Virus record (IMG/VR): IMGVR_UViG_3300020463_000169
Coordinates: 1 to 21,490 of that record
Length of the DNA: 21,490 nucleotides
Reading direction: 5' to 3' (one strand)
Source: a virus
The notes under the pieces were generated by a model. It had not been told where the DNA came from and ran no database searches. It was given only the letters and a program-made list of their open reading frames with translations. Below are positions 1,546-20,828 of this stretch, piece after piece. The stretch's first letter is position 1, and each line of letters starts with the position of its first letter. The translations under genes were made by a program, and so were the position numbers.

Positions 1546-2805
1546 TTAACCGTATACTGTAGATAAATCCTTCCATGATCCGTTTTCATAACCTTGAATC
1601 TTGTTGACTGTTGTGTTGTAAATCAATTCACCATTTTGTACACCTCCTAGGCCATTTCTGGCAGTGGTCGTGTAACTTGGCAATTTAAATCTTGGTGCAT
1701 TACCACTGGCTATTCTTGTATCAACTCTCGCATCTGTGTAATACAAATTAGTTGACCCTTCTGGTAATTGGTCTGTGTTACTGAATTGTACCAATTGGAA
1801 TCTGTTGAGAGTTCCACCATCATTTCTGTACATCAACAACTTGCCATTGTCTCCAGGACCAGCTGGTGAAAGAACGTTTGATAAATCTTGTAAATTTGCT
1901 AAGGCGATCCTAGCATCAGCCCTTGCGTTGGTATAGTACAAGTTGCTTGAACCTTCTGTTACTGTGTCTGTGTTGCCTTGTGTGTACGTCAAAGCACCAG
2001 TTGAACTATTGTATGCTAAATTGCCAGACGCTGAAATTGATGCTCTTGCCCTTGCTGTTGTGAAGTATAAATTACTTGACCCTTCTGATAAGTTATCTGT
2101 GTCCTTAGAGCTTATATCTAAATTTGTTCCTGTCTGTAAGTTGACTCTCGCATCTGCTCTAGCAGTTGTAAAAAACAAATTTGATGATCCTTCTGTAAAT
2201 GAATCAGTGTTAGTCAATGGATTTGCTTGCCACACATAACCTGATGTGCTGTGATTGTATTTTAATAAGTAACCATCCTGTGCTGAAGTTGGTGTTTCAA
2301 CATTTGATAATGTTTGCAAAGTTGCATTAGCGATTCTGGCATCCGCTCTTGCGTTGGTAAAATATTGATTCGATGAACCTTCTGATAAACTGTCTGTGTT
2401 TGATGCACCAATTCTCGCATCTACTCTTGCGTCAGTGTAGTACTTGTTTGAACCTTCTGATAAATTTGTTGTTGACTTGGTTGCGATCCTTGTGTCAAAA
2501 TCTGCGTTGGCCCTTGCACTTGTGTAATATAAATTTGCACTTCCTTCACTAAGATTATCTGTTGTTTTTGTTGCTAGTGCTGAAGTGAAGTTAGCACCAA
2601 ATCCTGCTGAAAGATCACCAGCGGCCAATGCCTTTACTTTGATCTTCCCTGTTGGGTTATCAAAGTATAAGAAATAACCATCGCTGGACCCAGTCCATTG
2701 TGTCTGGTCAAACTTGTCACGGAACGTGGTGTAATCAACAAAGTTATCATCCAGTTGATCAAATGTTAATGCTGTTCCTGAATTTCTTCTAAGTACTATT
2801 GCCAT
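1546..2805 (-). CDS. Tail fibre protein with seven TDxLxEGSxNLYYTxARADARI repeats, 419 aa
   Basis: Residues 1-58 form an N-terminal domain (MAIVLRRNSGTALTF, then DQLDDNFVDYTTF) that is clearly paralogous to the protein encoded just upstream. Residues 81-365 hold seven copies of a degenerate repeat, TD-x-L-x-EGS-x-NLYYT-x-ARADARI. Two copies of an interleaved module, LxxLSNVxxPxxxxxGxLLxY, begin near residues 163 and 304. The C-terminal motif GELIYNTTVNKIQGYENGSW (392-411) is of the 'xYNTTxNxxxxYxxGxW' type often seen at fibre ends. The repeat family is widespread in marine T4-like phages and is expected to form a trimeric beta-rich shaft. The ATG overlaps the stop of the upstream gene (TAATG), and GGAG inside that gene's last codons supplies the Shine-Dalgarno. 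Which receptor it binds, if any, cannot be read from the sequence. Confidence 0.85.
   Translation of the reverse strand: MAIVLRRNSGTALTFDQLDDNFVDYTTFRDKFDQTQWTGSSDGYFLYFDNPTGKIKVKALAAGDLSAGFGANFTSALATKTTDNLSEGSANLYYTSARANADFDTRIATKSTTNLSEGSNKYYTDARVDARIGASNTDSLSEGSSNQYFTNARADARIANATLQTLSNVETPTSAQDGYLLKYNHSTSGYVWQANPLTNTDSFTEGSSNLFFTTARADARVNLQTGTNLDISSKDTDNLSEGSSNLYFTTARARASISASGNLAYNSSTGALTYTQGNTDTVTEGSSNLYYTNARADARIALANLQDLSNVLSPAGPGDNGKLLMYRNDGGTLNRFQLVQFSNTDQLPEGSTNLYYTDARVDTRIASGNAPRFKLPSYTTTARNGLGGVQNGELIYNTTVNKIQGYENGSWKDLSTVYG
1711..2565 (-). repeat. Protein-level tandem fibre repeat array (7 units)
   Basis: Seven units with consensus TD-x-L-(S/T)EGSSNLYYT-x-ARADARI occupy residues 81-365 of the 419-residue fibre protein, with linkers of uneven length. 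At DNA level the units have diverged, so this is an old, selected array and not a recent tandem duplication. Confidence 0.85.
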
Positions 2806-3479
2806 TATCTAGATCTCCAAGTCGCACCATCGTAAATTAAACTTAACATACCACCTGTTGGATTTGAACTAACAGTAAGGTCACTTGCCGCTCCATCGAT
2901 GTTACTACCATTTCTAGCGACTATCAAATTATTAGTTGCAAAGTTTTCAGCACCATTTGTAAATTCAATTGTGTCTCCTGCTGACGGTGAAGCTGGTAAA
3001 GTTGCTGTAATTACTCCACTGGTTGTATCAACCATATATCTTTTTGAAGCTGTTCCACTAAATGATGACGTTTTGATTTCAAAACTGTTTTGAGCCGCGT
3101 CACCAACATACAAAGCATTGACAAATGCCTTAGTTACTCTAGCATCAATTGCCGTGTTGGCTCTTGTTGTTGTAAAATATTCGTTTGTTCCTTCTGATAA
3201 ATCTGAAGTTGATTTTGAACTAAAACCTGCTGTAACTCTAGCATCAGCTCTAGCATCTGTGTAATATAGATTAGTACCTTCAGTTACTTCTGATGTTGTT
3301 GCTGTTTTTACTTCAACGTTTGATGTAGAATTATTCCAATACAACAGCTTACCATTGTTACCAGATGTAAACGTGGTTGAATCAAACAGTGCCTTAAATG
3401 TTTCGTAATCAGTAAAATTACCATCTAGTTCTGCTTGGGTTAATGCTGATCCTTTAACTAATCTTTTTGTAATTGCCAT
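2805..3479 (-). CDS. Tail fibre protein, shorter paralogue of the next gene, 224 aa
   Basis: Residues 1-58 (MAITKRLVKGSALTQAELDG, then NFTDYETF and LLYWNN) align with the N-terminus of the 419-residue protein encoded immediately downstream. Residues 61-115 contain two of the same fibre repeats (SEVTEGTNLYYTDARADARV and SDLSEGTNEYFTTTRA). Residues about 126-224 are a beta-type C-terminal domain: RYMVDTTSGVITATLPASP, GDTIEFTNG, NNLIVARNGSNIDG, LIYDGATWRSR. This is a common domain of phage fibre and collar proteins. An AGG-type Shine-Dalgarno lies about 9 nt before the ATG. Upstream is a late promoter motif overlapping the end of the giant gene, and the stop overlaps the next start (TAATG), so the two fibres are probably made together. 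They may form a joined proximal/distal fibre, but this is inference. Confidence 0.85.
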   Translation of the reverse strand: MAITKRLVKGSALTQAELDGNFTDYETFKALFDSTTFTSGNNGKLLYWNNSTSNVEVKTATTSEVTEGTNLYYTDARADARVTAGFSSKSTSDLSEGTNEYFTTTRANTAIDARVTKAFVNALYVGDAAQNSFEIKTSSFSGTASKRYMVDTTSGVITATLPASPSAGDTIEFTNGAENFATNNLIVARNGSNIDGAASDLTVSSNPTGGMLSLIYDGATWRSR

Positions 3480-3499: not shown

Positions 3500-3507
3500 T
3501 ATTTATC
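3500..3507 (-). promoter_or_regulatory. Late promoter variant (GATAAATA) overlapping a stop codon
   Basis: The minus strand reads GATAAATA, matching the relaxed NATAAATA late motif reported for marine T4-like phages. Its first two bases are the last two of the TGA that ends the giant gene. It lies 21 nt before the ATG at 3479, leaving a leader of about 15 nt that holds the Shine-Dalgarno. It would let the fibre pair be transcribed independently of the 12-kb gene upstream. Confidence 0.5.
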
Positions 3508-6500
3508 ATTCTACATAGTCCTCAGGTGTTACATAGTCACCGCTTACATAATCTACCTGATTTTCGTTATTTGTTAGATAATTTGCTTGTTCATTGGTAC
3601 TGTTCAACAATGATGTTGCTGAATCGTTCCAAAATCCTTTTGATTTAGCATTTGGAATATGTGTGTCTCCACTGTATACTTCAACTGCGTTGCTGTGATC
3701 TTGTATTGTTGTCCCATGTGTTCCTCTAATTACATCACTCAATACGTTTCCACTGACTCTGCTGTATTCGATTCTTTCTGATCCAATCCATATTACAGCA
3801 GGCTTGTCAGTTACTGTATTATCAACTTGATTCACTATTTGTTTTGGTGTTGGTATCTTAGTTGCATCTGTAACTGTAATTAGATTTGATGATTTTGTTA
3901 TAGCACCATTGAGTGTTGTGTGATCATCAGTTGAACTTGGTGTACCAGAGTTGTCAACAAATTTATCTCTCAAGTAGTCAACAGTTCCGTATGGTGTGTA
4001 GTGTATTTTGTATTGTGATAGATCACCTGATCCTGTTATGACAGGTCTTACAATACCTCCTGACACATATTGTTTCAATGCTGTACCTCCAGAAGCGTAA
4101 GGATGATAACTAGCACCATTTACTGTATCAGCATCAAGTTTACTATTGTTTAATTCAAATGTGTTTGCTGTTATATTTTTTATTATGAATGTGCCATTAA
4201 TATCAGAAGCAATGTTGCTTGTTCCATCATTTGCTAACACACCACTGATCACTATTTTATCGTTGTTAAAATAACCATGTGATGGTGCAGTTACTACTAC
4301 TGGATCTGCTGTTGTGTATCCTGTGATTGATGCTTCTGTTGTATCTATTCCTGATAATTCAAAAGAAGTTGCTGTTGCATTAGCAACTGTGTAGACATTA
4401 TTGTTTAGTTGGTTTATTCCTTTAATTTGTGCTAACTCAATTTGATCACCATTTGATAAACCATGAGCAGTAGCACTTGTAACCACTGCCGGGTTTGCAT
4501 TTGTAATTGCTGTTATATTTTTATGCTGTAAAGATTTATCTGTGTTGTCATTTGATTTAACAGTAACCATCAATGACTCTTTTGGTTTAACTGGTGCAAG
4601 TTCTTCTGGATTTGGATCACGGTTTGGTCTTACGAAACCAGCTGAATCAAGTTGTGATTTGACCAATATCCATTTGCCTGCATCATAATCAGTTTTAAAC
4701 GTTGTACTTGATGTGTGTGCAACATTGGTGTAATAAATCCTATCGTTGATCAAGTCCCAGCGTGATGTTTGCAAAGTTGTCTCATTTGTTAAATTTTTAT
4801 GTGTTACGTTTGCAACATAAATTTTATTATTATGTTTTACCACATCACCAACTGTGTAACTGTTAGAAGCCGACCAAGCTGTTAAGTGTGTAAGATCATC
4901 GTGCTTAACAAAATCATTCTTTGCATAAGCTACTGAATAATTCCAAACAGAGGCTTTTGAAAAATTTGAATCGTACCATGATTGTATCGAATCAAAATCA
5001 TAACCCATAGGTGGATTTGATGATGCCGCATCTCCATCCCAATCTAAACTGTCCCATGCAAAAGTTGTCAGCTCCTGACCAATTCTATCTCTGTTGACTT
5101 TGAATCCAATTGGTTGAATATCTAAGTCTTTGTAGAATCCAATTTTGTTTGAAAGTGTTGTAACAAACGAACTCACTGAATCTACGTTAGCAGTGTCAAC
5201 AGCCGCAAGTTCAGTGGCATAATGATACTTGGCTAATCTATCAACATGTGTGGTTGTTGGCGTTGAAGATTTGACAGCATTAATTTTTGCAACGTCTGTG
5301 GCTTCAGTTGTTGGTTCAAAGTTTGTGTGTTGCCATTTACCTGCTTGTACGTCAGTAACGAAATTTGATGATGTGTGTGTTGTGTTACATTGCCAGTATG
5401 CACCTTTGTGTTTTACTTTAACACCAGCAGTATATGAAGTTGATGTTGCCCATGTAGTAACAACATTGACTGACGGCGAAACTAAAGTTATCGCTGTGCT
5501 GATTCTATCAAATGCCATTTTGGTTTTTACTTGTGGCGATGGGTTTGTATTTTTGTTAGTGTTGGTATCTAGTGCGTAATCTGAAGTACCAGTGAAATCA
5601 CTCATTGCCATGTTGGCGTTTTCTCTTACAGGTTTTTTCTTGCTTGAGAAATTTCTAATCTTAGTTCTATATGGTTTAACTTCTTCGATGTAAGTTTTAA
5701 CATCATTGAATGGATCTTTTTCAAATGATGCTTTTTGTGTTAATGCTGTGTCTTGCTGTACCACATTGAGATAAGTTGATTTGAATAACCAGTCAACGTG
5801 TTCTTGTTCGCTGTTTACGTATCTAATTATTGCAAATAATAAATCATTTTGATATTTTAAATTTTGTGCTATTAGAACATTATCTTTAATTGCTTTGATG
5901 TAAGCACGAAGTTCAGTAGCCATTGTTGTTGAATCTGCTTCAGTGTACACTGTTGTTTTTAATTTTGCTGTTGCTGTTTGTAAACCAACTCTCACTAGTG
6001 ATAAATTACTTGAATCATATGACGTTGTTGTGCCTGCAAGATAATCAGCATCAGTGTATTGCCACAACTCCCATTTAGAATTATAACCATAATTTACTTT
6101 GATGATATCATCTCTAGATAATTGACTGGTGTTGATTTCAGTATAGTAATCTACAATTCTGTTAATCACTGTGTCGTCACTGAATGAAGCATTGTAATAC
6201 CAATTTGTTTTTTCATAATAAACGGCAGTGGTCAAATCATCGTTCCAGCCAAAGTGATTTGCATCTAATAATATACTAGATGTGATAGCATTCATTGATT
6301 CAAATAATACTTTTCTCGCTTTTTTAGAATCTTTAAACCAGCTCTGTCTTGGTCTTACACTTGAACCATAACGATCATTTATTGATAAAGTCATGTCTGG
6401 TACTGTACTGTTTAATCTATCAAATCCAACTAAACTGTCGACCATTTTGTTCCAAATTTGATCTTGTATTGGAGCATCTGGATAATTTTCTCTTATCAGT

Positions 6501-9500
6501 AACCATTGTGCGTGTTTTGAATTTGTTTTATCGTCTGTGTTACGTTTTCTATAGTTCAACTGCAATACTGTGTTTTGTTTAGTGGTGAAATCTAAAACAT
6601 TAGCAATTGATATTGCGTTTTGTGAGACTGGTGCAAAGTAATTTAGTCCTTGTGTAATTGGAGAAGTAATAACACTTGCTACTGTTGAGGTATCATTTGT
6701 TCTTCCTTCTAACGCAGGAACTGTTGTGACATTTTTGACCCAGAAGTAATATGTTGTTATGTTTGCTGTTGTTGATGGATCTGTTTTAACTTTTGTAGAA
6801 TAATTGGTTGTCGATTTGACTGTGCCACTGCCTGTGTAACTTTCTGGTGCTACTGATGATTTTACCCATTCATAAATATCCACACTTGCTCCTGGAAATA
6901 ATCTACCCCAGTATTTTCTACGATATAAATTATCATGTGATTCATAATCAATATATCTGGTTGTAGATAGATCCCACCATACTTGACCAACGTATTCATC
7001 TTGCCATGGTTTGTTTGTACTAATTTCGTTTGTATCAGAATGATTGTTATACACTGCCGGATCAATCTCTGTCTTGTATTCAATCTCTCTATCTGCCTGT
7101 GGAGGTAATATACCTTTTGCAGGATCATATGGTACAAGAGTCAAATCAACTTTGTTATTTCGATCATCATATATGACTGCTTTTTCAAACTGGTCAGTTA
7201 CAACTTTGTCTTGCTGTCTACGTTTGGTATTTGCAAAATAAGTTGCATTTGTTTTTGTTGAATCATCATAATCAACATCACTGTGTAAGATCCATGTTCC
7301 ACCGTATGACGGAGACACTGCTGTGCTTTCTGTGCCACGTATTGAATTGTAAGTTGAAATAATAGATGAATTGGCTGTGAACCTGTAGACTCCCCAGTAA
7401 CCGGTTGAGTCATTGTCTAACCAAACCAAATCACCTTCTGACCATACAGCTGAATTCAATGACGTGCTAGTTAGGAAGTTTTGCAATGTATCACTTACTG
7501 TTGTTGATATTAATGAACTGTCTAGTGTTCTGTTGAGTCTTACATCTTTCCAGTCAAGCAATTTAATACCACTTGAATTAATTGTGGTATTGTCTGCTGT
7601 GGTTACAAATTCTGCTGTGCCATCTGGTTTAGTAATACTGTATTCTTTAGAAGTATAGTTTAATGTTAGTGTAACATTACCAGTTGTTGCTGATGAAACA
7701 GAAACGTTTGCTCTAACAGTTACGTTTGCATTATCTGTAACTGTGCCACTAGCCGAGATGTTGGATGAGGCAACTGCCTGTAAATTAGCAGTAGGAACAG
7801 TGTAAAGTGTAGTTGCAGTTGACCCATCCCATGATTCAACTACGATGGAAGGTGATGTACCGTCCCATGCAGTAGTCACGTTTGCAGTTAAACTACCCAA
7901 AGAATGAACTTTTGTTAAGCCTGTATTTAAGTTGACTGTGAAATTTGCTTTTGTATCTTTTACAGTAATACTTCCTGTTGCTGTTGATGTGATACCTGAA
8001 CTAAATCCTTGGTTTGCATAAGAGCCAGAATAGCCTGGAACAGTAATGGCTGTAATCGCTCCGCCACTCACTGTTATATCGCTTGATGCAATACTTATCG
8101 AAGAAGCATCTGATTTTGTAATTGTAATAGTCGGTGCTTGATAATTTGCTCCACCGTTTGTTATAACTAAATCTTTTATTTCACCAAATACTCCACCAGT
8201 ACCATTTCCAGTAAATGTAAATGATGGTGCTGTGTAATCTGTGCCTAATGTTTTGGCTGTTCCGGAACTGTTTTTAACTGTAAATCCATTTGGTGCTGTA
8301 GAATAGTTTGACCCACCACTGTTTAAAGTATACCCTGTTGGTGCACCGCCTGATTCACTAGACACTGTTGCAGTTGCACCACTACCAGTTGTTCCAGTAA
8401 ATGTAATTACATCTCCTGTGGCAAATCCAGTACCACCTGTCGATGTAACTGAAGCCACTGTGCCTGCAATATTGCCCACTGCCAATTGTGCTCCACTGCC
8501 AGCCACGTTTGCAAAAGGTATTGTCACAGTAGGTGCTGTTGGTGTTCCTTGAACTAGTGTTAAAGTATGTGTCCCCCAAACTGTTGGATTGATAACTAAA
8601 TTTCCTGAGCCATCATATGTTTTGTGCAGTATAACTTTTTTACCTGTGCCAATTTCTGCACCAGTTCCATTTACAGTAACTTTCATTGCAGTGTTGGCAT
8701 CACCATTTGAAACTATGTGATCAATCTTGGTATTTAATTCATATAGTTTGTATGCGTTCCAATCTTTTCCTCCAGTAACATCTTTGGCCACCCAGGCTGT
8801 TGATCCTATTGCAACATTGCCTGTTTGTGATCCATAGACACTGTCAAGTGCTGTTGAATCATATGCTTTGTATGTTGGATCATTAAAATGTACGTAACCA
8901 GCTGTTGGAATATTTGATTCTACTGTTGACACTGTTGGCCATAAATTTGCCAATGTTTTTTCACCTGTTGGTTTTTTCAACCAACGTTCTGTATCATCAA
9001 TATCAATAGTTACAATTTCATCTAATGTAGAATCATAGCCAGACACTGCTGAATTGTCTGTTGGTAAGACAAATTCAAATAATAAAGGATCAGTTACAAC
9101 ATCTTCTGCCTTAACTCTTAATTCAATCTGTTGGTTAAAATTTGTTGATCCAAAGTCACCAACTTTAAATGCCCATTCTTCATATGTATCAAACGATTGA
9201 TCAGTGCTTACAGTAGTTGAACGTAACAATCTATCAATGGCATTTGTTGTACCTTTTTGTTTAATCATACCTTGATACAATTTAACTTGATTACGTTTTG
9301 ACACACCTAAGTTTGTTAAGTAATTTCTTTCTTGATAACCAATTAGATGCATTGCCGCATCTCTAAAATCAGTGTCAACTTTTTCAGCATCAACATCATA
9401 AAAGTTTAATGTATCTTTTACAGATTTTTCAAAGTTGTTAATAAGTGATGTATCGTTGATGATAAACCCATCTGCTTCTAGTTTTCCGTTCCAGTTGTTT

Positions 9501-12500
9501 GATCTCACTGTTGATATTTTAACTCTTGGTTGTCTTTGTGCCAACAATGTGTTGTAAATTGTATCATTGAATATTGTTTTGTTGTTTAATGTAATAGAAT
9601 GTTCTGTCTCTTTAACGTATAGTCTTAAACCAAATATCCCTACACCATTTTTGTGTGAAATTGTAACATCATTATCGTTGCGTGAAACTTGAAGTTGTTT
9701 TGCATTCAACCCAAATCCTTCTTTGTTTAAAGCACTGTAACTACCATTGATGATGTCAGTCAAACTTTGAACCACACCACTGCTTGGAGAAAATTTTAAT
9801 TCTTGTGACGATGGGCTCAATGTAACATAGTTTCCTGGTTTCCATTTTCCTAAACTCCAAAATAAAAATTCTTTTGCCGAATATCTCCAATCTAAATTTT
9901 CACCTATGTCTGAATTATGTTGATCGAAGATCCAACCTTGAGTTTTTAAATATTCTCCATAACCTACAATCACATCATAAACTTCTTGTCTTGTTCTAAA
10001 CACAGTGCCAAAATCTATCGGAACAATATTACTGTAATCAAACTGTGTATAATGTTCAACTTCGGTTCCACCTTGCTGTGGAAGTTTGTTAATTTTTTTG
10101 AAGTATGACAAATTTGGTGATACATCTGCTTGTGCTGATGTATGTGGTACCGTACATTGATAATATAAATTATTATACACGACAACTTCATCTCTATGAT
10201 ACATTGTTCCTGTGTCATAACCAATTGGTACTATATCTTTACCACCAACTTTCACAGAATAACTTGGACCTGATTTAATTTGTTTGTATGTATTAAAATA
10301 TGGATTAGTTGTGTCATAACCATAAATTTTATATCCATTTTCAGTTAATTCAACAATACAAGCACTGTACACAGCTTCTTGTATACTTGATCCTTGATAT
10401 AAGTTTAAGTTGATATCTTCAGGAGGAATAATAATGTTTGTGCTTTTACTTGTTGAGTCATATGCTTCTGATTCAATTTTTAATTTTGTTGAGTCAATAA
10501 ATCCTGCACATCTATACATCAAGTTAGTTTGCATGTTTCTAATTATATCACCAAATGCAATGCCAACTTGATTACCTTGATAAATTACATAATCAGATAT
10601 AAAATTTTGAATACCAGATCGATAGTATCTTGTGTTGTTAGAATCTGTCTCTGCATGAACATAATAATTATTATTAACTGGTCTTCTGCCAGAAGTTTTA
10701 TCTATTGTTTGATTCTTGTCAATAAATGCTTTTTGGATGTTGTCAACTTCCCATAATTTGTCCATATATGAAACAGGATTTGTCAAATACATTAATTGTT
10801 GAAGTGCATATGAATATGCAGTTGATGTAACAAACGCATGTTCTACCGGAGCACCGTCACCAAATTTCCAACCTGCTTGTGATGCCTCTCTAGATGGATC
10901 TGTAGATATAATACCAATTTGTTTAGGACTTAACAAATTACCACCTGTATCAACAGGCACATATTTTGAAAAACCTGGTTTTTTGTAAACATTGTCGTTA
11001 CCTAAATAAGATCTATTAGTGTAATTTTCTCTTACACCATCACGAATAATACCTTGTTCGATATCTGATATCAGTTGTGTTCTTACCGATGGTGTTGTCC
11101 AAGTATAATATTGATCCCACCAAATCGGTTTTTGTGAAAACCCTAGCATTTCCCATGGATGTGTATGTGGTCGATCAGTTCCATAGAACCAACGATATAT
11201 TCCTCTCCAGTGTCCTGGAAGTGCCACGCCTTCTTGATCCTGTAATGACGAATAGTTTATCACTCTCCAATCAACATTTACAGTGTCTATTTTTCTGCCT
11301 GCTTTACTTTGTGATCCTAGTATTACTTCGTCAATCAAAAATTTATCAACCACTGAATTAATAGTGATAGTATTTGTATCATCACTTACACTTGTGACAA
11401 TACCTTGTGCACCAGAATTCGATCCAATAATTTCTTCTCCTACCACAAACTTTTGTACTGCATTTGATAAACTGCCTGAGCCACCTACTTGAACATATTG
11501 AGCATTCACATAATTTGTAACAAGATAATTTGCGTTTCCATCAAGTGTAATTGTTTCTGCATAGCCGGTATTTTCTTGATAGTTCACTGCGTTTTCATTT
11601 GTCCATCTAGAAAATATTGGACGCATTATATCATCAATTTCTTTTTTCTGCCATGAAGTTGAATTAAATTTAGTTGGAATAACTTGCTGTGGCTCATATG
11701 ATGCAATTTTATCTTGATCTGAAATAACATGACTTAATGTATTGTAAATTCTTTTCTCTAATTCTAATAATGCTGTATCTCTTAAATCATTGTATTTTAA
11801 AACTAACGTGCCATCATGACATTGGATAAAGTTTCTTGTACCGCTACTGTAAGTAACTGTGTCAGAAATTTCTGTTGGCTTATAAATTTTTGCAACTCCT
11901 AAAGACGCTGGCGTGCTTGGTATCCACGTTGGTTGTTTAGTTTCATAATAACGTATCGTGATAATATCGCCTACTTGAGGTTTGTCTGCAACTCTTCCTA
12001 AGAAAACTACTTTGGTTCCCTTAGATGATTGATCAACAATGTAATCATGATTTATTAACATCTGCACATTATTCTTGTATATGTATAGTGCTTTTGTTTT
12101 ATAATCAGCATCAGGATCAAATGAACTTGATATCATTAATCCTGGTTGTAAATTAAATATTTCTTGTGTCACAGTGTTAAGATTTAAGAAAGTGCTTTGT
12201 GTTCCCCATGTTCTATTTGTTGTGGTAATAGTATGTGTTTCAGCAGTATACCTGTCACCACTTGCAATCAAATTTGAATATGCATATGGATCATTGGTAC
12301 TTTTACTAATGTTTAGATTTGTGATAGCTTGGTCAACAACCTGTGCAATATTTAAACTGTGATTTGTATTTTGTATATTGTTCACTGCATTTAAAAATTT
12401 TAATTGGAATTCTTGGTACCTATCTTTAGTATATCTCAATGATTCGAGCATGTCTATGTCACTGTTATTTGCTATTGCCATTGTTTTAAGTAACGGTGCA

Positions 12501-15500
12501 TCGTGTTGTAAGATAACAGAACCAAGGCTTAAATTTTTTGCTGTATCTCTATAATTGTTGGAACCATTAACTGATCCAGTAAAGTTAGGTTGTGCTTGAA
12601 TGATTGACTTGAAGTGTTCAAACACTTCACTGTAAGTGGTTGTGCCTACATTCTCATTAGACGCATTGTTTTGTAAATTTTTTGGTATCTCATAATAGTT
12701 TACAGCTTTAAGTGGATTAGGATTATTTGTACGGTAATAAACTTTGATAAAATCTCCAGCAATCAAGTCAGTTGTAAAATTAAACATAACACTATTTGAC
12801 ATAGTGTAGTCTGTACCAAATACTAATTTTGTGCCATTCTTGTAAACATCTATATCAAGAACGGATGTTGGAATAACTTCTAATACCAATGGTGTTGTTA
12901 AATTTCGATTACTAACTGTGTGCTCATGCACCATTTTTTGAGATATTTTGTTTGACGGATCAGTTAACCATTCATTTTTATATTCTACTTTTGTGGCATC
13001 GTCGAGTGTGCTTACAGAATTATCAACAACAACAAATGATCCACCCATGTTATTGTGTACTCCACAATGATAGTATAATGTATTTGGTGCGTTTGCAGGA
13101 ACTGTAAATTTTAATACAGATGACGTTCCGCCATAGTATGCTCTTGAACCTGTCACACCTCCAGTATATTCGTTATTAAATCCAGTTTGTGTAAATGTGT
13201 TTGGATATGCATCTACTGGTGGCCAAGTTCCAACAGCGCCAGGTGTTCCCGGTGAATCAGGATCAGTTTTCATTGCAACACCATTTACGAGCAACGTGTT
13301 TGACGCACCTGTTATAAACTGTCCTGCATTTTGCGTATTAATTTCTTGATCTAAAATTACTGTCGCATTTTTTGTTATATCTGCTTTTACGGTTGCAGTT
13401 ACTCCACTGTTATTATTTTGTGTGATTACATCACCTTTTTTTAATGTTACAACATCATTGAGCACTAGTGTTTTTGTAAAACTTGCCCAACCAGTATTGC
13501 TATTAGAAATATAAAATGGATGACTAGCATTTGAGTAACCAGTTGCTGATGATTCCGGAGAACTAAATTTAAAATTGTAAGTGTTGCCTCTAACTAATAT
13601 TAAAGCAGGTGCTTCTTGTCCGTTTATGTAATACTTGTTAACTTTTTCATTGCTGAGACTTGGATTTACATTAACTTCATAATCAATGTTTTCAGCAATC
13701 GTTTCTGGATATGTAAATTGCTTGTAATATTTGTATCCTGTTATGTTGTTGCTACCATCAGTATATGTATCTTCATATAAGAAGTTAGAAAACTGTATGT
13801 CACTTCGATCAGATCCAGATGAGTAAGACAGTGCAAATCCTAGTTCAGCATCGTTGATACTGCCACTGCCTGTTTTAAAACCAAATATTTTTGATCCTGT
13901 AAAGTTAGATGATGCATACGTGCCGGTATCACTCAACAACACTTGGTTGTTATCATATAAGTTATACAAAGGAGGTTGATTTGATGCTGTTTTAAGTTGT
14001 GCTTCATTCCACCCGACACCATCGTAATACCATTCAGTTCCTTTGAATGTACTTCCTTTTTCAATGTAAACCTTATCTTTGTTGACCAGTGTTGATACAA
14101 CTTTTGTTAGAGTTATGCTTGTGCCAACTCCAGACACTTTCCATATCGATGAAGCTACATCAAAGGCTGTGTTTGAGACATCCCATCCTTGGTCACCACC
14201 AGTTCCGCCACCACCACCTGTTGCTGGATTTGAATCTGTGTCGTGATCCCAAAGCACACTGTCTCCATCCCACTTAACATAGTCATCTTGACTTGATGCA
14301 TTTGGAAATAGTATAGTGTCTTGGTTTTGTAAAAGATGTCCGTCTATAACAATTGATGATTGACCTTCGACTTGTGTTTTAGATAAAGTATTTTCAATCA
14401 CAGTCACATCTCGTAAATGTTTTGCACCATAATCATATAATTCAATATCTTTTTTAAATTCTAAAATAGGTCTCAATGCACGTCTGGCTGATGTACGTTG
14501 GAAAGATGATGTTGACTGAATAATCTGTACATCAAATGCTGATGTATCCCAAGAATCATCATCCCACAGTTGGTCAGTTTCAGATGAACTAGAAACTGAC
14601 GGATAATTCTCAAGTGTGTCTTTGTGTACCCAACCATTTGACTTTGACCAAAGGTTGCCATCTCTAGCTCCACGTTCGACTGTGACATAATCTTTTTTTG
14701 CTTCAGATGAATCATTAATACTTCTCAGTGTTCTTGTGTCAATTAATTTTATTTCTCTGCCAACACCTTCAATGATAAATGTTACTGCTGTTCTTGTTGT
14801 AGCAATTGCAATGACTCCACTTGTTCCTGCTGAAGATGTTATAGTTACTGAGCCTGGATAAACTCCATCAGCTAAACTTTTTTCAGTTATCTCGACCGCT
14901 GTTATTCCGCCACTTCCATTAACAGTTAGAACTTTACCAACAGTTGTTGTTCCTATTTTAATTGCATCGTTGACCACATACCCTGAACCTGCGGTACTAA
15001 TAGTTGCAGATCCAATTGCATAAAAATATTGATATGATGCACCAGTAATATATGAACCTTCAAAACGAATGTGTAGTCCGTTTGTAAAAACTGTTCCATC
15101 TGGTGCTGTGTAACTTTTTTTACCTACAATGTCTGTTGGCAACGTAATACTAGTTGTTGAACTTCCGTCAATTGGCTTAGATGGTAATGATGCAAACGCA
15201 CCACTAGTTTCTGTTGTTAAACTGTCATTTAGTGGATACCAATAATAATTGGCATAGTTTAAATACTTGTCAACGTCAATTGGTGGAGCATAAGAATAAT
15301 ATGATGATTCAAAAAGTCTTGAATGCTTTTTGACGTTACCACCATCATATCTTATTTTGTTTACAACATCATCATATGTTGATTGATATGATATTGTTTG
15401 CGTGTCTGCGTTTCTAACAACTGTTGCTGGCTCAAGTTGATAGTTTATTCTATCAACCGTTGGTTCAGATATGTAAGAATCTTTTGTTGCGTTTAATAAT

Positions 15501-15649
15501 CTTCCTTGTCTTTGTCCGACAAATCCTTTTTCAAATGTGCTGTTTTCATTTTTAAACCACTGGTCAACTGTTGAATCAAAAAAGTTTTTTAACTTGGTTG
15601 ATTGTAAAACATGTGGTAATGTTCTTGATGCAATAAATTGCTCAGCCAT
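3506..15649 (-). CDS. Giant baseplate/virion structural protein, 4047 aa, in the gp7 position
   Basis: The frame is uninterrupted. ATG lies 3 nt after the gp6 stop, with AAGGGG inside the gp6 end as Shine-Dalgarno. The N-terminus (FIASRTLPHVLQSTKLKNFF near 5-24, NYANYYWYPL near 130) and a Trp-rich section near 1480-1515 (YRWFYGTDRPHTHPWEMLGF) resemble large structural proteins encoded after gp6 in cyanophage-type genomes. Many beta modules follow one another: Gly/Thr-rich 'GxGY' modules (about 205-290, 2375-2550), 'VGExIxGxxSGAxG' modules (1390-1453, related one near 725-790), a cupredoxin-like module (about 662-878; H710, C862, H865, M868), CBM5/12-like modules (about 1806-1856, 3400-3440, 3592-3660), two 'HGxxNxD' modules (about 3710-3860), and near the C-terminus ERIEYSRVSGNVLSDVIRGT (from about 3956). 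T4 gp7, the wedge-initiating protein, has about 1030 residues and also follows gp6, so a gp7-like role is inferred from position. A giant fibre-like tail protein remains possible. Confidence 0.75.
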   Translation of the reverse strand: MAEQFIASRTLPHVLQSTKLKNFFDSTVDQWFKNENSTFEKGFVGQRQGRLLNATKDSYISEPTVDRINYQLEPATVVRNADTQTISYQSTYDDVVNKIRYDGGNVKKHSRLFESSYYSYAPPIDVDKYLNYANYYWYPLNDSLTTETSGAFASLPSKPIDGSSTTSITLPTDIVGKKSYTAPDGTVFTNGLHIRFEGSYITGASYQYFYAIGSATISTAGSGYVVNDAIKIGTTTVGKVLTVNGSGGITAVEITEKSLADGVYPGSVTITSSAGTSGVIAIATTRTAVTFIIEGVGREIKLIDTRTLRSINDSSEAKKDYVTVERGARDGNLWSKSNGWVHKDTLENYPSVSSSSETDQLWDDDSWDTSAFDVQIIQSTSSFQRTSARRALRPILEFKKDIELYDYGAKHLRDVTVIENTLSKTQVEGQSSIVIDGHLLQNQDTILFPNASSQDDYVKWDGDSVLWDHDTDSNPATGGGGGTGGDQGWDVSNTAFDVASSIWKVSGVGTSITLTKVVSTLVNKDKVYIEKGSTFKGTEWYYDGVGWNEAQLKTASNQPPLYNLYDNNQVLLSDTGTYASSNFTGSKIFGFKTGSGSINDAELGFALSYSSGSDRSDIQFSNFLYEDTYTDGSNNITGYKYYKQFTYPETIAENIDYEVNVNPSLSNEKVNKYYINGQEAPALILVRGNTYNFKFSSPESSATGYSNASHPFYISNSNTGWASFTKTLVLNDVVTLKKGDVITQNNNSGVTATVKADITKNATVILDQEINTQNAGQFITGASNTLLVNGVAMKTDPDSPGTPGAVGTWPPVDAYPNTFTQTGFNNEYTGGVTGSRAYYGGTSSVLKFTVPANAPNTLYYHCGVHNNMGGSFVVVDNSVSTLDDATKVEYKNEWLTDPSNKISQKMVHEHTVSNRNLTTPLVLEVIPTSVLDIDVYKNGTKLVFGTDYTMSNSVMFNFTTDLIAGDFIKVYYRTNNPNPLKAVNYYEIPKNLQNNASNENVGTTTYSEVFEHFKSIIQAQPNFTGSVNGSNNYRDTAKNLSLGSVILQHDAPLLKTMAIANNSDIDMLESLRYTKDRYQEFQLKFLNAVNNIQNTNHSLNIAQVVDQAITNLNISKSTNDPYAYSNLIASGDRYTAETHTITTTNRTWGTQSTFLNLNTVTQEIFNLQPGLMISSSFDPDADYKTKALYIYKNNVQMLINHDYIVDQSSKGTKVVFLGRVADKPQVGDIITIRYYETKQPTWIPSTPASLGVAKIYKPTEISDTVTYSSGTRNFIQCHDGTLVLKYNDLRDTALLELEKRIYNTLSHVISDQDKIASYEPQQVIPTKFNSTSWQKKEIDDIMRPIFSRWTNENAVNYQENTGYAETITLDGNANYLVTNYVNAQYVQVGGSGSLSNAVQKFVVGEEIIGSNSGAQGIVTSVSDDTNTITINSVVDKFLIDEVILGSQSKAGRKIDTVNVDWRVINYSSLQDQEGVALPGHWRGIYRWFYGTDRPHTHPWEMLGFSQKPIWWDQYYTWTTPSVRTQLISDIEQGIIRDGVRENYTNRSYLGNDNVYKKPGFSKYVPVDTGGNLLSPKQIGIISTDPSREASQAGWKFGDGAPVEHAFVTSTAYSYALQQLMYLTNPVSYMDKLWEVDNIQKAFIDKNQTIDKTSGRRPVNNNYYVHAETDSNNTRYYRSGIQNFISDYVIYQGNQVGIAFGDIIRNMQTNLMYRCAGFIDSTKLKIESEAYDSTSKSTNIIIPPEDINLNLYQGSSIQEAVYSACIVELTENGYKIYGYDTTNPYFNTYKQIKSGPSYSVKVGGKDIVPIGYDTGTMYHRDEVVVYNNLYYQCTVPHTSAQADVSPNLSYFKKINKLPQQGGTEVEHYTQFDYSNIVPIDFGTVFRTRQEVYDVIVGYGEYLKTQGWIFDQHNSDIGENLDWRYSAKEFLFWSLGKWKPGNYVTLSPSSQELKFSPSSGVVQSLTDIINGSYSALNKEGFGLNAKQLQVSRNDNDVTISHKNGVGIFGLRLYVKETEHSITLNNKTIFNDTIYNTLLAQRQPRVKISTVRSNNWNGKLEADGFIINDTSLINNFEKSVKDTLNFYDVDAEKVDTDFRDAAMHLIGYQERNYLTNLGVSKRNQVKLYQGMIKQKGTTNAIDRLLRSTTVSTDQSFDTYEEWAFKVGDFGSTNFNQQIELRVKAEDVVTDPLLFEFVLPTDNSAVSGYDSTLDEIVTIDIDDTERWLKKPTGEKTLANLWPTVSTVESNIPTAGYVHFNDPTYKAYDSTALDSVYGSQTGNVAIGSTAWVAKDVTGGKDWNAYKLYELNTKIDHIVSNGDANTAMKVTVNGTGAEIGTGKKVILHKTYDGSGNLVINPTVWGTHTLTLVQGTPTAPTVTIPFANVAGSGAQLAVGNIAGTVASVTSTGGTGFATGDVITFTGTTGSGATATVSSESGGAPTGYTLNSGGSNYSTAPNGFTVKNSSGTAKTLGTDYTAPSFTFTGNGTGGVFGEIKDLVITNGGANYQAPTITITKSDASSISIASSDITVSGGAITAITVPGYSGSYANQGFSSGITSTATGSITVKDTKANFTVNLNTGLTKVHSLGSLTANVTTAWDGTSPSIVVESWDGSTATTLYTVPTANLQAVASSNISASGTVTDNANVTVRANVSVSSATTGNVTLTLNYTSKEYSITKPDGTAEFVTTADNTTINSSGIKLLDWKDVRLNRTLDSSLISTTVSDTLQNFLTSTSLNSAVWSEGDLVWLDNDSTGYWGVYRFTANSSIISTYNSIRGTESTAVSPSYGGTWILHSDVDYDDSTKTNATYFANTKRRQQDKVVTDQFEKAVIYDDRNNKVDLTLVPYDPAKGILPPQADREIEYKTEIDPAVYNNHSDTNEISTNKPWQDEYVGQVWWDLSTTRYIDYESHDNLYRRKYWGRLFPGASVDIYEWVKSSVAPESYTGSGTVKSTTNYSTKVKTDPSTTANITTYYFWVKNVTTVPALEGRTNDTSTVASVITSPITQGLNYFAPVSQNAISIANVLDFTTKQNTVLQLNYRKRNTDDKTNSKHAQWLLIRENYPDAPIQDQIWNKMVDSLVGFDRLNSTVPDMTLSINDRYGSSVRPRQSWFKDSKKARKVLFESMNAITSSILLDANHFGWNDDLTTAVYYEKTNWYYNASFSDDTVINRIVDYYTEINTSQLSRDDIIKVNYGYNSKWELWQYTDADYLAGTTTSYDSSNLSLVRVGLQTATAKLKTTVYTEADSTTMATELRAYIKAIKDNVLIAQNLKYQNDLLFAIIRYVNSEQEHVDWLFKSTYLNVVQQDTALTQKASFEKDPFNDVKTYIEEVKPYRTKIRNFSSKKKPVRENANMAMSDFTGTSDYALDTNTNKNTNPSPQVKTKMAFDRISTAITLVSPSVNVVTTWATSTSYTAGVKVKHKGAYWQCNTTHTSSNFVTDVQAGKWQHTNFEPTTEATDVAKINAVKSSTPTTTHVDRLAKYHYATELAAVDTANVDSVSSFVTTLSNKIGFYKDLDIQPIGFKVNRDRIGQELTTFAWDSLDWDGDAASSNPPMGYDFDSIQSWYDSNFSKASVWNYSVAYAKNDFVKHDDLTHLTAWSASNSYTVGDVVKHNNKIYVANVTHKNLTNETTLQTSRWDLINDRIYYTNVAHTSSTTFKTDYDAGKWILVKSQLDSAGFVRPNRDPNPEELAPVKPKESLMVTVKSNDNTDKSLQHKNITAITNANPAVVTSATAHGLSNGDQIELAQIKGINQLNNNVYTVANATATSFELSGIDTTEASITGYTTADPVVVTAPSHGYFNNDKIVISGVLANDGTSNIASDINGTFIIKNITANTFELNNSKLDADTVNGASYHPYASGGTALKQYVSGGIVRPVITGSGDLSQYKIHYTPYGTVDYLRDKFVDNSGTPSSTDDHTTLNGAITKSSNLITVTDATKIPTPKQIVNQVDNTVTDKPAVIWIGSERIEYSRVSGNVLSDVIRGTHGTTIQDHSNAVEVYSGDTHIPNAKSKGFWNDSATSLLNSTNEQANYLTNNENQVDYVSGDYVTPEDYVE

Positions 15650-15652
15650 TGA

Positions 15653-18600
15653 TTACGACCCCTTTTTTAAATTCTGATCAGTAAATGAATTTATTATTTC
15701 AATGTTATCAACTGTAGCAGTAGAATAAAATAACTCATTTGGGTCTGAAGTAATTTCAAACAAATCACCAAATACAGATTCTGCATCTGAACCAACAATA
15801 ACAACTGAACTGATCTGTGTTGACAGTTGGCTGTGTATGTAAGCACATAGTTCTGTGTAATAAAAACTTTCACCGTATGACCAATTTTTTATATCAAAGA
15901 AATCATTGATTGAAGATAAAACTCTTGCTTTGATTTCATTGTCTGTTATTGTTGCTCCTGCTGATTTGATAATTTTAAACTTTCCTTGTAGACTTTGATC
16001 AGCAGTTGTGCCAAATAATTTTTTAAATTTGGCCGGTGTGTAGATTAATTGATCTCCAATTGCCTTATATGGTTTTAATATTGATGCAAACGATGTGTTT
16101 AAAGTTTCAACACTTGGTTCTGTTGGAAACTCACTAGCCGATCTGTTGTTTGCTGTCCATTCAAGAACATCGTTATAGTAATCAGTGGTCAACACAATAA
16201 GTTCAATTATGTTTGATATGCTTGGATCTATTCTTTGATCTCTTGGAGCAGTATGTTTCCATTGGAAGAATAAAGGATTGCTTAAACCAGAAGTTGTTGT
16301 GTAAGAACGACCAACATTTGATCTATAAATTGTTGTACCTATTGTTGCGGTATATTCACCTTGTTGTCCTGTTGTGGTTACCAGTGTTCCTGAATTGTAA
16401 AACTTTTTAGTTGTAGTTAAAAATTCAATACCACTGTTAGTGAGTGTGCTTACAGGAGTAACTGCCGTAGACAGTTTGTAATATGTATATCCATCAAATT
16501 CTTGATAGCTTTCAAAGAAGATATAATTTTTTTCACTAGCTGTGTCATATATTAAATCATCTATCGCTAATGGATAATTTGGCATACTATCTTCATCTGC
16601 ATCGTATGGAGCCACTTTAACTTTTTTATTATCAACATATCCATCTTGTTCGATAAAGTTATCAACCACCGCCAGTTGTATAGCATCTGGTAATCTACTA
16701 CCTATTTGCTGTGAAGTTAATGTTACAGTTGGTGTGCTTGAATATCCTGCACCTGCTGTAATTGGTGTGACTGCAATGACTGATCCATCGTGTACTGTTG
16801 CAATTGCTGTTGCATTTGTAGTTGGACTGCCTCCAGTTATTGTAACTGTTGGTGCTGTTGTATAATTTGCTCCTGGTGCCGTTACTGTAAATCCTGTTAT
16901 AGATCCGCCGCCAAGTGTTGCTGTTGCTGTTGCTCCTGAACCTTTTTCAATTGCAGTGTTAACATCTGCTAATATATCAATTCTATCTTGTACACTTAAA
17001 CCTGTTTGGGTATCAAGTGTTTTATAATCTTTTACATAAAAGAATCTTACATCATCAGTTGATTGGAACACATAATCTAAACCTCTTGCAGTTAGAGTAA
17101 ATTTGGCATTTGTGTTGGCACCTTTTTCAGTGAATTGTACTTTAACTAACCAACTTGAATCGTTGTTAGATCCTGGACTTCCTCCACCAATTGAATTATT
17201 AGCACTAGAAAATTCACTTGTTTGATCTAAATTTGCATTAGCTATAACATACCATTCTTCTGCTTTACTTGAAGTTTTATAAAAATTATATCCAATAGCA
17301 AAAGTTGTCAACGTTGTAGATGCTGATGTCAATTGTGATAACAACGTTGATCTTTCAGTCGACGTAAATGTTGTTCTTAAATGTGGAATAACTGTTCTTG
17401 CAATATAGCCAGCTGGTATTGATTCAGTTAACTGTATTGGTCCAGTTGTTAAATTTGTTTTATCTCCGTTGGCTGTAACACTTTTTACTGTTGCCCAAAT
17501 TACTTTTGTTGGATTACTGTAAGTGTTTACAAATTCAATCTTTGAACCTTTTCTAATGTAACCATGTCTAGTTGTAGACGCCCCAGTTGCAACCAAACGT
17601 GCTGTTGCTGAATTGTCAGTAGTAAAGTGACCGTAGTAACTAGATGAAGCTGTAGGTAAAGTTCTCCAATACGCAGAGTTTGTTCCTGTTGATTCAAACT
17701 TAAATGTATCTGTTCCTGTTGACAAATTTGCTTCAATGTCTTTTTTATATGTGTCGAAATAGAAGTTTTGCATCTGTTGAGTTTGAATCATTTTTTCTAA
17801 TTGATCAACTACACTATCGTATGAACTGTTGTCTAAAACTGATATAATGTCTTCTGTTGTGTTTGGAGATTTGAAAACTATGCCATCTTCACCAATACAA
17901 TTTACATTGGCTACTGTGCCTGTTGGATCTTGAATATCTAAAAATCTTGAATGTCCCGCATGTGTTTTGTTTAATGCTTTTATCTTTCGTATTCCTGAAA
18001 CTTTAGTAATTGGAAACACATTGTAATCTTCTGCTGTGACCATTCTGTCTTGTGTGTAATATGCCTGTGCAGAATTTAATTTTATATCGCTAATACTTTC
18101 TCTTGATGATGAATTTGTAATTGTATAGTTTAAGCTAAAAGTCATGGACAGGTCGAACGTTTGATTTGATTTATTAATGTAACCAAAAGATATACCTTTG
18201 TTTTGAATATCATTTGCCTGCACTGATTCACCTTTTAATGCACTAGCTCTATACCAAATACGATATAGTCCAACTGGTATGTTTCCAAAATCACCGTCTG
18301 AAAACTGTAAAGCGATTTGATCATCTAGTTTTGTTTTTACTTCAAATATGTTTCTTTCAGATAGTGCTAAACTATTATATATAATATTTTGTCCTGACAA
18401 CGTTGGAACTTTTTTCCAATTGCTTTGCACCAATCCTGTAGAACTGATCTCTTGCACCCAAACATCTGTGTTGTTGATATCAGTGACATCAATATCTACG
18501 ACTCTGTCTTGCACCGGTTGATCAAAATTAAAATCTTGATATGCAATTGAACCTTCTTTCATATACAGGAAGAATCCAGTGTTGGTACTGCCGTAACCCT

Positions 18601-19333
18601 TACCATCGTTTTTGTAAATGACATTGAAAGCATTCAATGGGTTTGGACTTTGTTCTTCAATAAAACCTGCTGTGTTAAATTGTGCTGGCACAATTTCAAA
18701 AGAGTAATTTACATTATTAATTTTTGAACTAAATGGATATGCTACTTGAACATTTTTTATATTATTGAAATTGTATATATCATTGTTTAAAGAATTAATT
18801 GTTTGACTTTGTGTTGGTTTGCCAAATTGGTTTGTTTCAGTAATTGAAGCATTTAGTACTACAATAAATTGTTCAAACCAATTTGGATTGTTTGGATCGT
18901 TCCAACGCACTTCTACATTACTTAAATTATTTCCCGCTGAATCACTGACTGGCTCTGATGTTTTTATTGCTGTTAGTTTCACAAGGCCACGTGCTGTTGA
19001 GTTACGTGCAGGTTTGTAACTTAACATGTTAGCTAATTTTAATATTGATTCTCTTCTTGATGCTGTGTCAACAAAATTTTCTCTTGCATTTAGATCAATT
19101 CTAAATGACAAACTTTGTCCTAGATATGCTAATAGATCAATGATCGCGATGAATTCAGATGAATTAATATAGTCATTGAATTCTTCTGGATAGTTTCTTG
19201 AAATGTAGTTAAGCATTGATTGTCTGATTGTATCAAAATCATATGATCTAAAATCAGCATCTGAAAAACTTCTATAGATTACTTTCCAATCTTCTGCCGC
19301 GAATAAATTTGACTGTCTAATTAATTGTCCCAT
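15653..19333 (-). CDS. 6: Baseplate wedge protein gp6-like, 1226 aa
   Basis: T4 gp6 dimers form the ring of the inner baseplate that joins neighbouring wedges. The N-terminus shows the family pattern: DADFRSYDFDTIRQSMLNYI (25-44), EEFNDYINSSEFIAIIDLLA (50-69), DLNARENFVDTASRRESIL (80-98), LSYKPARNS (104-112). The C-terminal part (from about 1020: RDQRIDPSISNIIELIVLT, then NYDxxxxW-like DVLEWTANN) is also typical. It is much longer than T4 gp6 (about 660). Part of the excess is a Gly/Thr-rich insert at about 795-871 with two 'GAxYxxxPTVTxT' units, matching modules in the giant protein encoded next. Its ATG overlaps the gp25 stop (TAATG), with GGAGGA in the gp25 glycine tail as Shine-Dalgarno, so translation is probably coupled. 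Identification is firm. The role of the insert is unknown. Confidence 0.93.
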   Translation of the reverse strand: MGQLIRQSNLFAAEDWKVIYRSFSDADFRSYDFDTIRQSMLNYISRNYPEEFNDYINSSEFIAIIDLLAYLGQSLSFRIDLNARENFVDTASRRESILKLANMLSYKPARNSTARGLVKLTAIKTSEPVSDSAGNNLSNVEVRWNDPNNPNWFEQFIVVLNASITETNQFGKPTQSQTINSLNNDIYNFNNIKNVQVAYPFSSKINNVNYSFEIVPAQFNTAGFIEEQSPNPLNAFNVIYKNDGKGYGSTNTGFFLYMKEGSIAYQDFNFDQPVQDRVVDIDVTDINNTDVWVQEISSTGLVQSNWKKVPTLSGQNIIYNSLALSERNIFEVKTKLDDQIALQFSDGDFGNIPVGLYRIWYRASALKGESVQANDIQNKGISFGYINKSNQTFDLSMTFSLNYTITNSSSRESISDIKLNSAQAYYTQDRMVTAEDYNVFPITKVSGIRKIKALNKTHAGHSRFLDIQDPTGTVANVNCIGEDGIVFKSPNTTEDIISVLDNSSYDSVVDQLEKMIQTQQMQNFYFDTYKKDIEANLSTGTDTFKFESTGTNSAYWRTLPTASSSYYGHFTTDNSATARLVATGASTTRHGYIRKGSKIEFVNTYSNPTKVIWATVKSVTANGDKTNLTTGPIQLTESIPAGYIARTVIPHLRTTFTSTERSTLLSQLTSASTTLTTFAIGYNFYKTSSKAEEWYVIANANLDQTSEFSSANNSIGGGSPGSNNDSSWLVKVQFTEKGANTNAKFTLTARGLDYVFQSTDDVRFFYVKDYKTLDTQTGLSVQDRIDILADVNTAIEKGSGATATATLGGGSITGFTVTAPGANYTTAPTVTITGGSPTTNATAIATVHDGSVIAVTPITAGAGYSSTPTVTLTSQQIGSRLPDAIQLAVVDNFIEQDGYVDNKKVKVAPYDADEDSMPNYPLAIDDLIYDTASEKNYIFFESYQEFDGYTYYKLSTAVTPVSTLTNSGIEFLTTTKKFYNSGTLVTTTGQQGEYTATIGTTIYRSNVGRSYTTTSGLSNPLFFQWKHTAPRDQRIDPSISNIIELIVLTTDYYNDVLEWTANNRSASEFPTEPSVETLNTSFASILKPYKAIGDQLIYTPAKFKKLFGTTADQSLQGKFKIIKSAGATITDNEIKARVLSSINDFFDIKNWSYGESFYYTELCAYIHSQLSTQISSVVIVGSDAESVFGDLFEITSDPNELFYSTATVDNIEIINSFTDQNLKKGS

Positions 19334-19902
19334 TAGTATCCTCCTCCGCCACCGCCGCCGGATGATCCACCTCCACCAGCACCACTGCCAGCAGATCCAC
19401 CGCCACCTGATCCACCACCGGATCCGGAGCTTCCTGATGCACCGTTAACGTTAAATTCAATGGACATCCGTTCAACTTGATTTTGTGGAAGTATTCTCAA
19501 TGCAACATTGACTATTATACCATTTTCGAATCCAACTACATTAACGTCAACTAAACTTACTCTAGGGTCTTGCCCAACAATTTCTTTTGCATCTAATTCA
19601 ATAATTTCTTTTGTTTGTTCATCCAAAGGCTCGTAAAGGTAATCCCAAATAATACTACCAAATGTTGGTAACATCACACGTTCACCTTTTGCAGTCATAA
19701 AATGATTGTAAATATCCTGTTTTATAATATCAGCATCGTATAACACACTGTTACGAGCATTTGGATTGCTAGAACTAAAACCACGATAAGTTTTTGTGCT
19801 TACATAGTTGCTTTGAGGGTTTTGCACTGATGATGAAGGAGAGACTGTGCGTACCGAATTCCCCATAGAACCATTGTATGTTGTTGGTGTGTTATATGCC
19901 AT
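19333..19902 (-). CDS. 25: Baseplate wedge protein gp25-like, 189 aa, with Gly/Ser-rich tail
   Basis: The gp25 family (GPW/gp25, shared with TssE of type VI secretion) forms part of the core wedge bundle with gp6 and gp7 and connects the baseplate to the tail sheath. The conserved core is at residues 55-150: DADIIKQDIYNHFMTAKGER (56-75), LPTFGSIIWDYLYEP (78-92, containing the family's conserved Glu-Pro), then IELDAKEIVGQDPRV (101-115). T4 gp25 has about 132 residues. Here there is a Ser/Asn/Thr-rich N-terminal extension (1-50) and an unusual Gly/Ser tail (154-189). The start has AAAGGA 7 nt upstream and a late promoter motif 30 bp upstream. It is first in the minus-strand block, overlaps gp6 by one base, and is followed by gp6 and the giant gene, which fits joint assembly of a wedge. 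Confidence 0.95.
   Translation of the reverse strand: MAYNTPTTYNGSMGNSVRTVSPSSSVQNPQSNYVSTKTYRGFSSSNPNARNSVLYDADIIKQDIYNHFMTAKGERVMLPTFGSIIWDYLYEPLDEQTKEIIELDAKEIVGQDPRVSLVDVNVVGFENGIIVNVALRILPQNQVERMSIEFNVNGASGSSGSGGGSGGGGSAGSGAGGGGSSGGGGGGGY
19336..19443 (-). other. GC-rich low-complexity segment encoding the gp25 Gly/Ser tail
   Basis: These 108 bases encode residues 154-189 of gp25, almost only Gly and Ser with a final Tyr. They are strikingly GC-rich within an AT-rich genome. The last codons contain GGAGGA, correctly placed as the ribosome-binding site for gp6, so the tail has coding and regulatory content. Confidence 0.85.
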
Positions 19903-20267: not shown

Positions 20268-20828
20268 ATGAAAAAATATGATCAATATACAGCGGCTGAT
20301 AAGATAGATGCACATCTACACGACAATGACATACACTACCTCACTGGAGAGATCACCAACGATAATGTTACTGAAACAATTAAATGGATCTTGTCAGCAA
20401 ATTTAGCCAAAAAACCCAAAAAGACATTAAAGCTGTATATTAACTCGATGGGCGGAGATCTATATGAATCATTTGCATTGATTGATGTGATGAAGGACAG
20501 TTACCATCATATTTCAACTATTGGCATAGGTGCTGTGATGAGTGCTGGGTTGCTAATATTTACAAGTGGCAAACAGGGCGAAAGATACATTGCTAAAAAT
20601 ACAGGCATCATGAACCACCAACATTCAGATGTGATGGAATCAAAAATGCACGATATGAGATCACAAATGAAAGAAAACAACAACTGTGAATTAAGATGTT
20701 TGAACATACTGCGTGAAGCAACAGGATTTAGTTTAGCAGATATCCGTAAAAAATTAAATACTCCGAGCGATCAATATTTTACTGCAAAGCAGATGATTGA
20801 CTTAAAACTGGCCGACCACGTTCTATAA
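20268..20828 (+). CDS. clpP: ClpP-like serine protease (S14 family), 186 aa
   Basis: ClpP is a barrel-shaped serine peptidase that degrades proteins fed to it by an AAA+ unfoldase. The catalytic triad can be placed by motif: Ser92 in GAVMSAGLLIFTSG (88-101, matching the GQAASMGAFLL type), His117 in IMNHQHS (114-120, matching MIHQP), and Asp168 in SDQYFTAKQM (167-176, matching DRFLSAPEA). The oxyanion-side loop INSMGGDLYESFALIDVM (58-75) replaces the usual INSPGG. Length is slightly below E. coli ClpP (207 with propeptide), and no propeptide is obvious. No Clp ATPase gene is in the window, so it may use a host unfoldase, act alone, or serve in capsid or lysis-related processing. The late-type promoter suggests expression with the virion genes. 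The family call is firm; the biological role is not known. Confidence 0.88.
   Translation: MKKYDQYTAADKIDAHLHDNDIHYLTGEITNDNVTETIKWILSANLAKKPKKTLKLYINSMGGDLYESFALIDVMKDSYHHISTIGIGAVMSAGLLIFTSGKQGERYIAKNTGIMNHQHSDVMESKMHDMRSQMKENNNCELRCLNILREATGFSLADIRKKLNTPSDQYFTAKQMIDLKLADHVL

Follow-up and report, generated by a model that had tools for sequence, protein, structure and literature searches.

The giant, putative virion structural protein encoded by a 21,490-base record of an uncultured marine phage, all of which constitutes the window analysed here, contains at residues ~650-885 a predicted eight-stranded cupredoxin domain with an amicyanin-type set of type 1 copper ligands (H710, C862, H865 and M868), plugged into what is a giant baseplate-wedge protein and belonging to a family that is reused in baseplate, connector and fibre proteins of marine phages. 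With copper loading and a stabilising role for the metal included, we regard this account as reasonably probable. The domain, a plug-in cupredoxin of phage tails, is probably able to bind copper at the predicted site, and since hundreds of marine phages carry it in their tails, their particles may bind copper as well.

The giant protein and its candidate copper ligands

The 4047-residue ORF (positions 3506-15649, minus strand; phrog_10938) directly follows genes for a gp6-like baseplate wedge protein (15653-19333, minus strand; phrog_10646 and phrog_219) and a gp25-like baseplate wedge protein (19333-19902, minus strand; PF04965), and it occupies the gp7 position after gp25 and gp6. The location within a baseplate-wedge gene cluster agrees with the baseplate setting claimed in the initial annotation of this DNA. 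Homologues of the protein are the giant virion proteins of jumbo phages, and the gp25-gp6-giant order is identical in phage PA5oct, whose annotation records detection of the giant homologue, and indeed of the whole gp25-gp6-giant run, by ESI-MS/MS. The virion of phAPEC6 contains a 131-kDa baseplate wedge protein, gp244, and the 382-kDa gp245 (PMC7247149); judged by size and order, these may be the counterparts of the gp6-like and giant proteins of the window.

Several other features of the region were noted. Near its C-terminus (residues ~3591-3773) the giant protein has three CBM_5_12 stretches of chitin-binding type and an E1_FCCH-like stretch, and the gp25-like protein (window 19333-19902) is closed by a long Gly/Ser-rich tail. 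Two adjoining proteins encoded at 1546-3479 (minus strand) have SEGSSNLYYT.ARA-like repeat units in common and are apparently related structural proteins, and a ClpP-type protease gene (20268-20828, plus strand; PF00574, E 7.4e-29) is read in the opposite direction to the tail genes.

The initial annotation placed a copper site within residues 662-878 (13016-13666), and its ligand positions are exact. By translation, the codons of H710 in SHPFYIS (13520-13522) and of C862 (13064-13066), H865 (13055-13057) and the candidate axial ligand M868 (13046-13048), the latter three in LYYHCGVHNNMGG, all lie on the minus strand. Half a dozen or so cysteines had been counted in the protein; there are six (residues 862, 1277, 1714, 1764, 1832 and 3421), one of them being the candidate ligand. 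The C-x2-H-x2-M motif occurs once in the 4047 residues and arises in 3 of 5000 shuffles of the protein. Its spacing had been described as that of plastocyanin, but it matches that of amicyanin; in the two plastocyanins of phages that were examined the motif is C-x2-H-x4-M.

The complete domain, delimited by orthologue alignment and the predicted model, spans residues 645-890 (12980-13717, minus strand). Twelve orthologues from uncultured phages in IMG/VR have an uninterrupted domain of ~147 amino acids at residue ~645 of the same giant protein, and alignment with these divides the window domain into an N-terminal half of the core (residues 645-719; 13493-13717), an insert of ~99 amino acids that all 12 lack (residues ~720-818; 13196-13492, with edges uncertain by a few residues), and a C-terminal half that includes the Cys-His-Met loop (residues 819-890; 12980-13195), each on the minus strand. 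The insert is in frame, begins after HPFYISNSNT and hence after the first histidine, is peculiar to the window contig among the sequences found, and has a GC content of 38% compared with 30-35% in its flanks. No repeats marking it were seen, and searches for homologues of the insert found none, the weak Salmonella-phage matches (E 0.03-0.04) spanning half of its length. The long distance between H710 and C862, which had been attributed to an extra beta module, is explained by this additional segment; its beta nature is unproven, since AlphaFold2 models the core of the domain confidently and gives the insert only a low-confidence structure.

Predicted fold and sequence relationships

AlphaFold2 models of the window domain and of an uninterrupted orthologue (L005) were built without templates. 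The L005 model (pLDDT 85.5, pTM 0.80) has eight strands, and all of the PDB fold matches listed for it are cupredoxin-fold copper proteins: copper nitrite reductase, AcoP, rusticyanin, laccases and other multicopper oxidases, with a best E value of 2.7e-5. Using VIA-align, it superimposes on rusticyanin with a Z score of 10.9 (2.4 A over 110 residues), and the window model aligns with the N-domain of nitrite reductase with a Z score of 10.8. The models thus predict a Greek-key beta sandwich of about eight strands that matches solved cupredoxins, and the cupredoxin-like fold proposed earlier, for which structure prediction and a fold search had been suggested, finds support in both.

In the L005 model the candidate ligands occupy strand positions like those of type 1 copper sites: His 66 immediately precedes a strand, Cys 119 terminates one, and the loop leading into the final strand holds His 122 and Met 125. 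Sequence and strand positions together show the type 1 pattern of an upstream histidine followed by a Cys-His-Met group in that final loop. From the ends of the aligned range, Met125 would fall on Met148 of rusticyanin if the last strand is ungapped.

Detecting this relationship by sequence comparison requires a broad profile. Searches of PDB sequences with the window domain or a close-orthologue profile gave chance matches only, and the close-orthologue profile gave no convincing alignment with cupredoxins (P 0.01). A profile of 20 family sequences matched mostly copper proteins near threshold, with a multicopper oxidase first (E 0.0023) and nitrite reductase, azurin, plastocyanin, amicyanin and pseudoazurin among the further matches. 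The NCBIfam amicyanin model is matched, below its cut-off, by eight of these 20 members (best 8e-5), and when the family profile is aligned by hhalign with eight real cupredoxins, H, C, H and M fall in register (P 2.3e-4), albeit at a probability of only 44%.

Ligand conservation and distribution of the family

Conservation of the ligands among homologues, the check proposed in the initial annotation, was assessed in two sets of domains. The cleaner set consists of 40 distinct domains recovered with patterns that avoid the ligands; the upstream histidine and the cysteine are both present in 35 of these and both absent from four, none is mixed, and the one remaining sequence lacks the histidine and ends before the cysteine position. 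The larger set of 211 related domains, somewhat biased because one of the recovery patterns contains the upstream histidine, has 147 with both residues, 61 with neither and three mixed, and when thinned to 70% identity has 32, 32 and two respectively. Exactly one cysteine, the ligand, is present in every ligand-bearing copy (149/149), and 54 of the 62 ligandless copies have no cysteine at all. The ligands are therefore kept or lost jointly rather than at random, and the sequences point to conservation of the type 1 set wherever the site is retained, the exceptions being three orthologues (L013-L015) in which only the methionine is lost and the ligandless clades. When the ligand columns were left out, the resulting tree placed the ligandless copies in about three distinct groups, and an independent-pairs test had no power; joint retention or loss of the set thus traces to a small number of independent events that falls short of significance, so that the joint losses are supporting evidence and not proof. 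The existence of whole ligandless sister clades indicates that the fold does not need metal.

The domain is a widespread marine module and is not special to the window protein. Searches by tblastn recovered 317 phage records when an orthologue served as query (at E values up to 1) and 321 when the S-SCSM2R protein did (at E values up to 1e-4). Almost all are Synechococcus or Prochlorococcus phages, with a few phages of Methylophilales and Pelagibacter and other marine phages. In some 300 cultured marine phages the domain usually resides in baseplate wedge/tail fibre connector or tail pin proteins and in fibre proteins, and P-SSM4 has five matches at E up to 0.001, four stronger and one weak, of which some are ligandless. 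In BFVD, many tail proteins of cyanophages have similar folds, as do 'beta-sandwich' proteins of giant viruses. A search of plasmids gave no match to the domain. A first scan of cellular genomes did not find it, and a second found it on 11 contigs, one of which (L214) resembles a piece of phage with T4_gp9_10_N plus the domain. Marine archaeal contigs carry it, the one complete protein (L222) having a lipoprotein-like N-terminus, collagen repeats and the domain at its end, and PS1/OCS116 bacteria (L216-L219) have it twice per protein; these archaeal and bacterial members all keep H, C, H and M. Within the giant protein itself the domain behaves as an add-on, since in the non-marine jumbo phages PA5oct, Phosso and Atu_ph07 the homologues show next to no sequence at its site, and the hypersaline jumbo phage SCTP-2 has a related ligandless stretch there (L236, giant-protein residues ~478-591).

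These patterns bear on the question of whether the site is occupied at all. The fold could be maintained for structure or adhesion only, with a ligand set that descends from a copper-binding ancestor, goes unfilled in the virion and is gradually disappearing, and the persistence of ligandless clades in the same proteins, the SCTP-2 stretch, the loss of methionine in L013-L015 and the assembly of virions in a cytoplasm where copper is scarce would all be expected on this basis. Without metal, however, the lone cysteine and its partners should drift singly, whereas mixed states are confined to just three of the 211 domains and the single cysteine is universal in the ligand-bearing copies; we therefore consider an empty, decaying site to be an unlikely but serious alternative to a copper-binding one.

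Proposed role and relation to known systems

If the site does bind copper, as we favour, it would be empty during virion assembly in a cytoplasm poor in copper, and would take up the metal on the exterior of the baseplate after exit from the cell, either in seawater or at a cell surface. The bound metal would most likely rigidify a surface-exposed adhesion or decoration module; the ligandless sister copies suggest a fold that came first in importance, with metal binding as an extra. A redox switch, or docking to copper proteins of the host, is conceivable but speculative. A stronger proposal, that marine phage tails have functional type 1 copper sites which are loaded outside the cell and used in infection, for example by docking on surface proteins with which the host handles copper (a copper counterpart of the Ferrojan Horse) or as a redox-triggered switch, we regard as rather doubtful; were it true, phage particles would also form an oceanic reservoir of bound copper.

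Cysteine, histidine and methionine also bind other soft or borderline metals such as Zn(II), Ag(I) and Hg(II), and the site could serve one of these, or provide a reactive thiol, and not be a copper site; the fold and the spacing of the ligands both match type 1 copper proteins, and the database matches are to copper proteins, which makes this improbable. An electron carrier that helps host photosynthesis, a plastocyanin-like metabolic gene in effect, is brought to mind by the annotation of one phage member as PetE, but it is very hard to reconcile with the presence of the domain within structural proteins, with the match of the PetE-labelled protein of Synechococcus phage S-SCSM2R to the phrog_677 baseplate connector family (E 1.7e-39), or with the separate plastocyanin genes of S-SCSM2R and S-SCSM1, which score above the Pfam cut-off and make electron transfer for the host unlikely. 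That chance produced the resemblance in a beta-rich tail protein can be dismissed despite the abundance of beta sandwiches in such proteins, being contradicted by the rarity of the motif among shuffles, the ligand conservation and the fold matches.

Identity of the domain with plastocyanin was likewise rejected, as it lies inside structural proteins and S-SCSM2R and S-SCSM1 carry distinct true plastocyanins. The S-SCSM2R 'PetE' protein (L060, 2812-3318; PQ898602.1, 170926-171432) is a member of the structural domain family, and its label is probably that of a misannotated metabolic gene. This serves as a warning that a 'PetE' annotation in a phage can denote a structural protein.

That hundreds of marine phages have a cupredoxin family built into their tails opens a concrete test, namely whether purified cyanophage contains copper, and is relevant to how phages use metals in adsorption and to trace-metal chemistry. 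The established roles of cupredoxins are those of redox carriers and enzyme domains, and plastocyanin is a known metabolic gene of cyanophages. In the open-access literature we found no paper linking cupredoxins with a phage baseplate or tail fiber and none joining type 1 copper, bacteriophage and virion, and the only one linking cupredoxin and cyanophage concerns Borgs; as the search was restricted to open-access papers, this absence is weak evidence. The fold and the site are thus of known kinds; what the open-access papers searched did not yield is their repeated use in the tails of phages with all of the type 1 ligands present.

Among known proteins, the domain resembles amicyanin and other type 1 blue copper proteins (PF00127, TIGR02657) in its predicted cupredoxin fold, its upstream histidine and its C-x2-H-x2-M before the last strand. 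It differs in being part of virion proteins, whereas the amicyanin type is a small exported redox carrier, in its longer His-Cys region, to which the window adds an insert, in having a copper site that is predicted, and in scoring under the curated cut-offs: the window and its orthologues miss the 21.2-bit threshold of PF00127 (plastocyanin/azurin), the best family members reaching 13.3 and 17.4 bits, and L005 scores 12.7 bits against the 110.2 of TIGR02657. Rusticyanin, AcoP and the N-domain of copper nitrite reductase are alike in fold (Z 10-11) with ~14-20% identity over the aligned residues, although the spacing between Cys, His and Met is longer in rusticyanin. The At5g54830-like domain (PF25489) is matched by all six of six close orthologues and by 13 of 20 wider members (best E about 8e-8), although the displayed scores of individual members are under its cut-off. 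The C-terminal domain of the cyanophage baseplate wedge/tail fibre connector gp9 (phrog_677) belongs to the same family (E 4e-17 for L005 and 8e-12 for the window), but is C-terminal in a protein of ~410 amino acids, whereas that of the window is internal to one of 4047. The nearest idea is provided by the iron-binding HxH motifs in the tail fibres of T4 (gp37) and alterophage R22Y (PMC11705849), which likewise place metal ligands on phage tails; those are HxH motifs for iron in a fibre, whereas the phage cupredoxin domain presents Cys, His and Met in a predicted cupredoxin fold.
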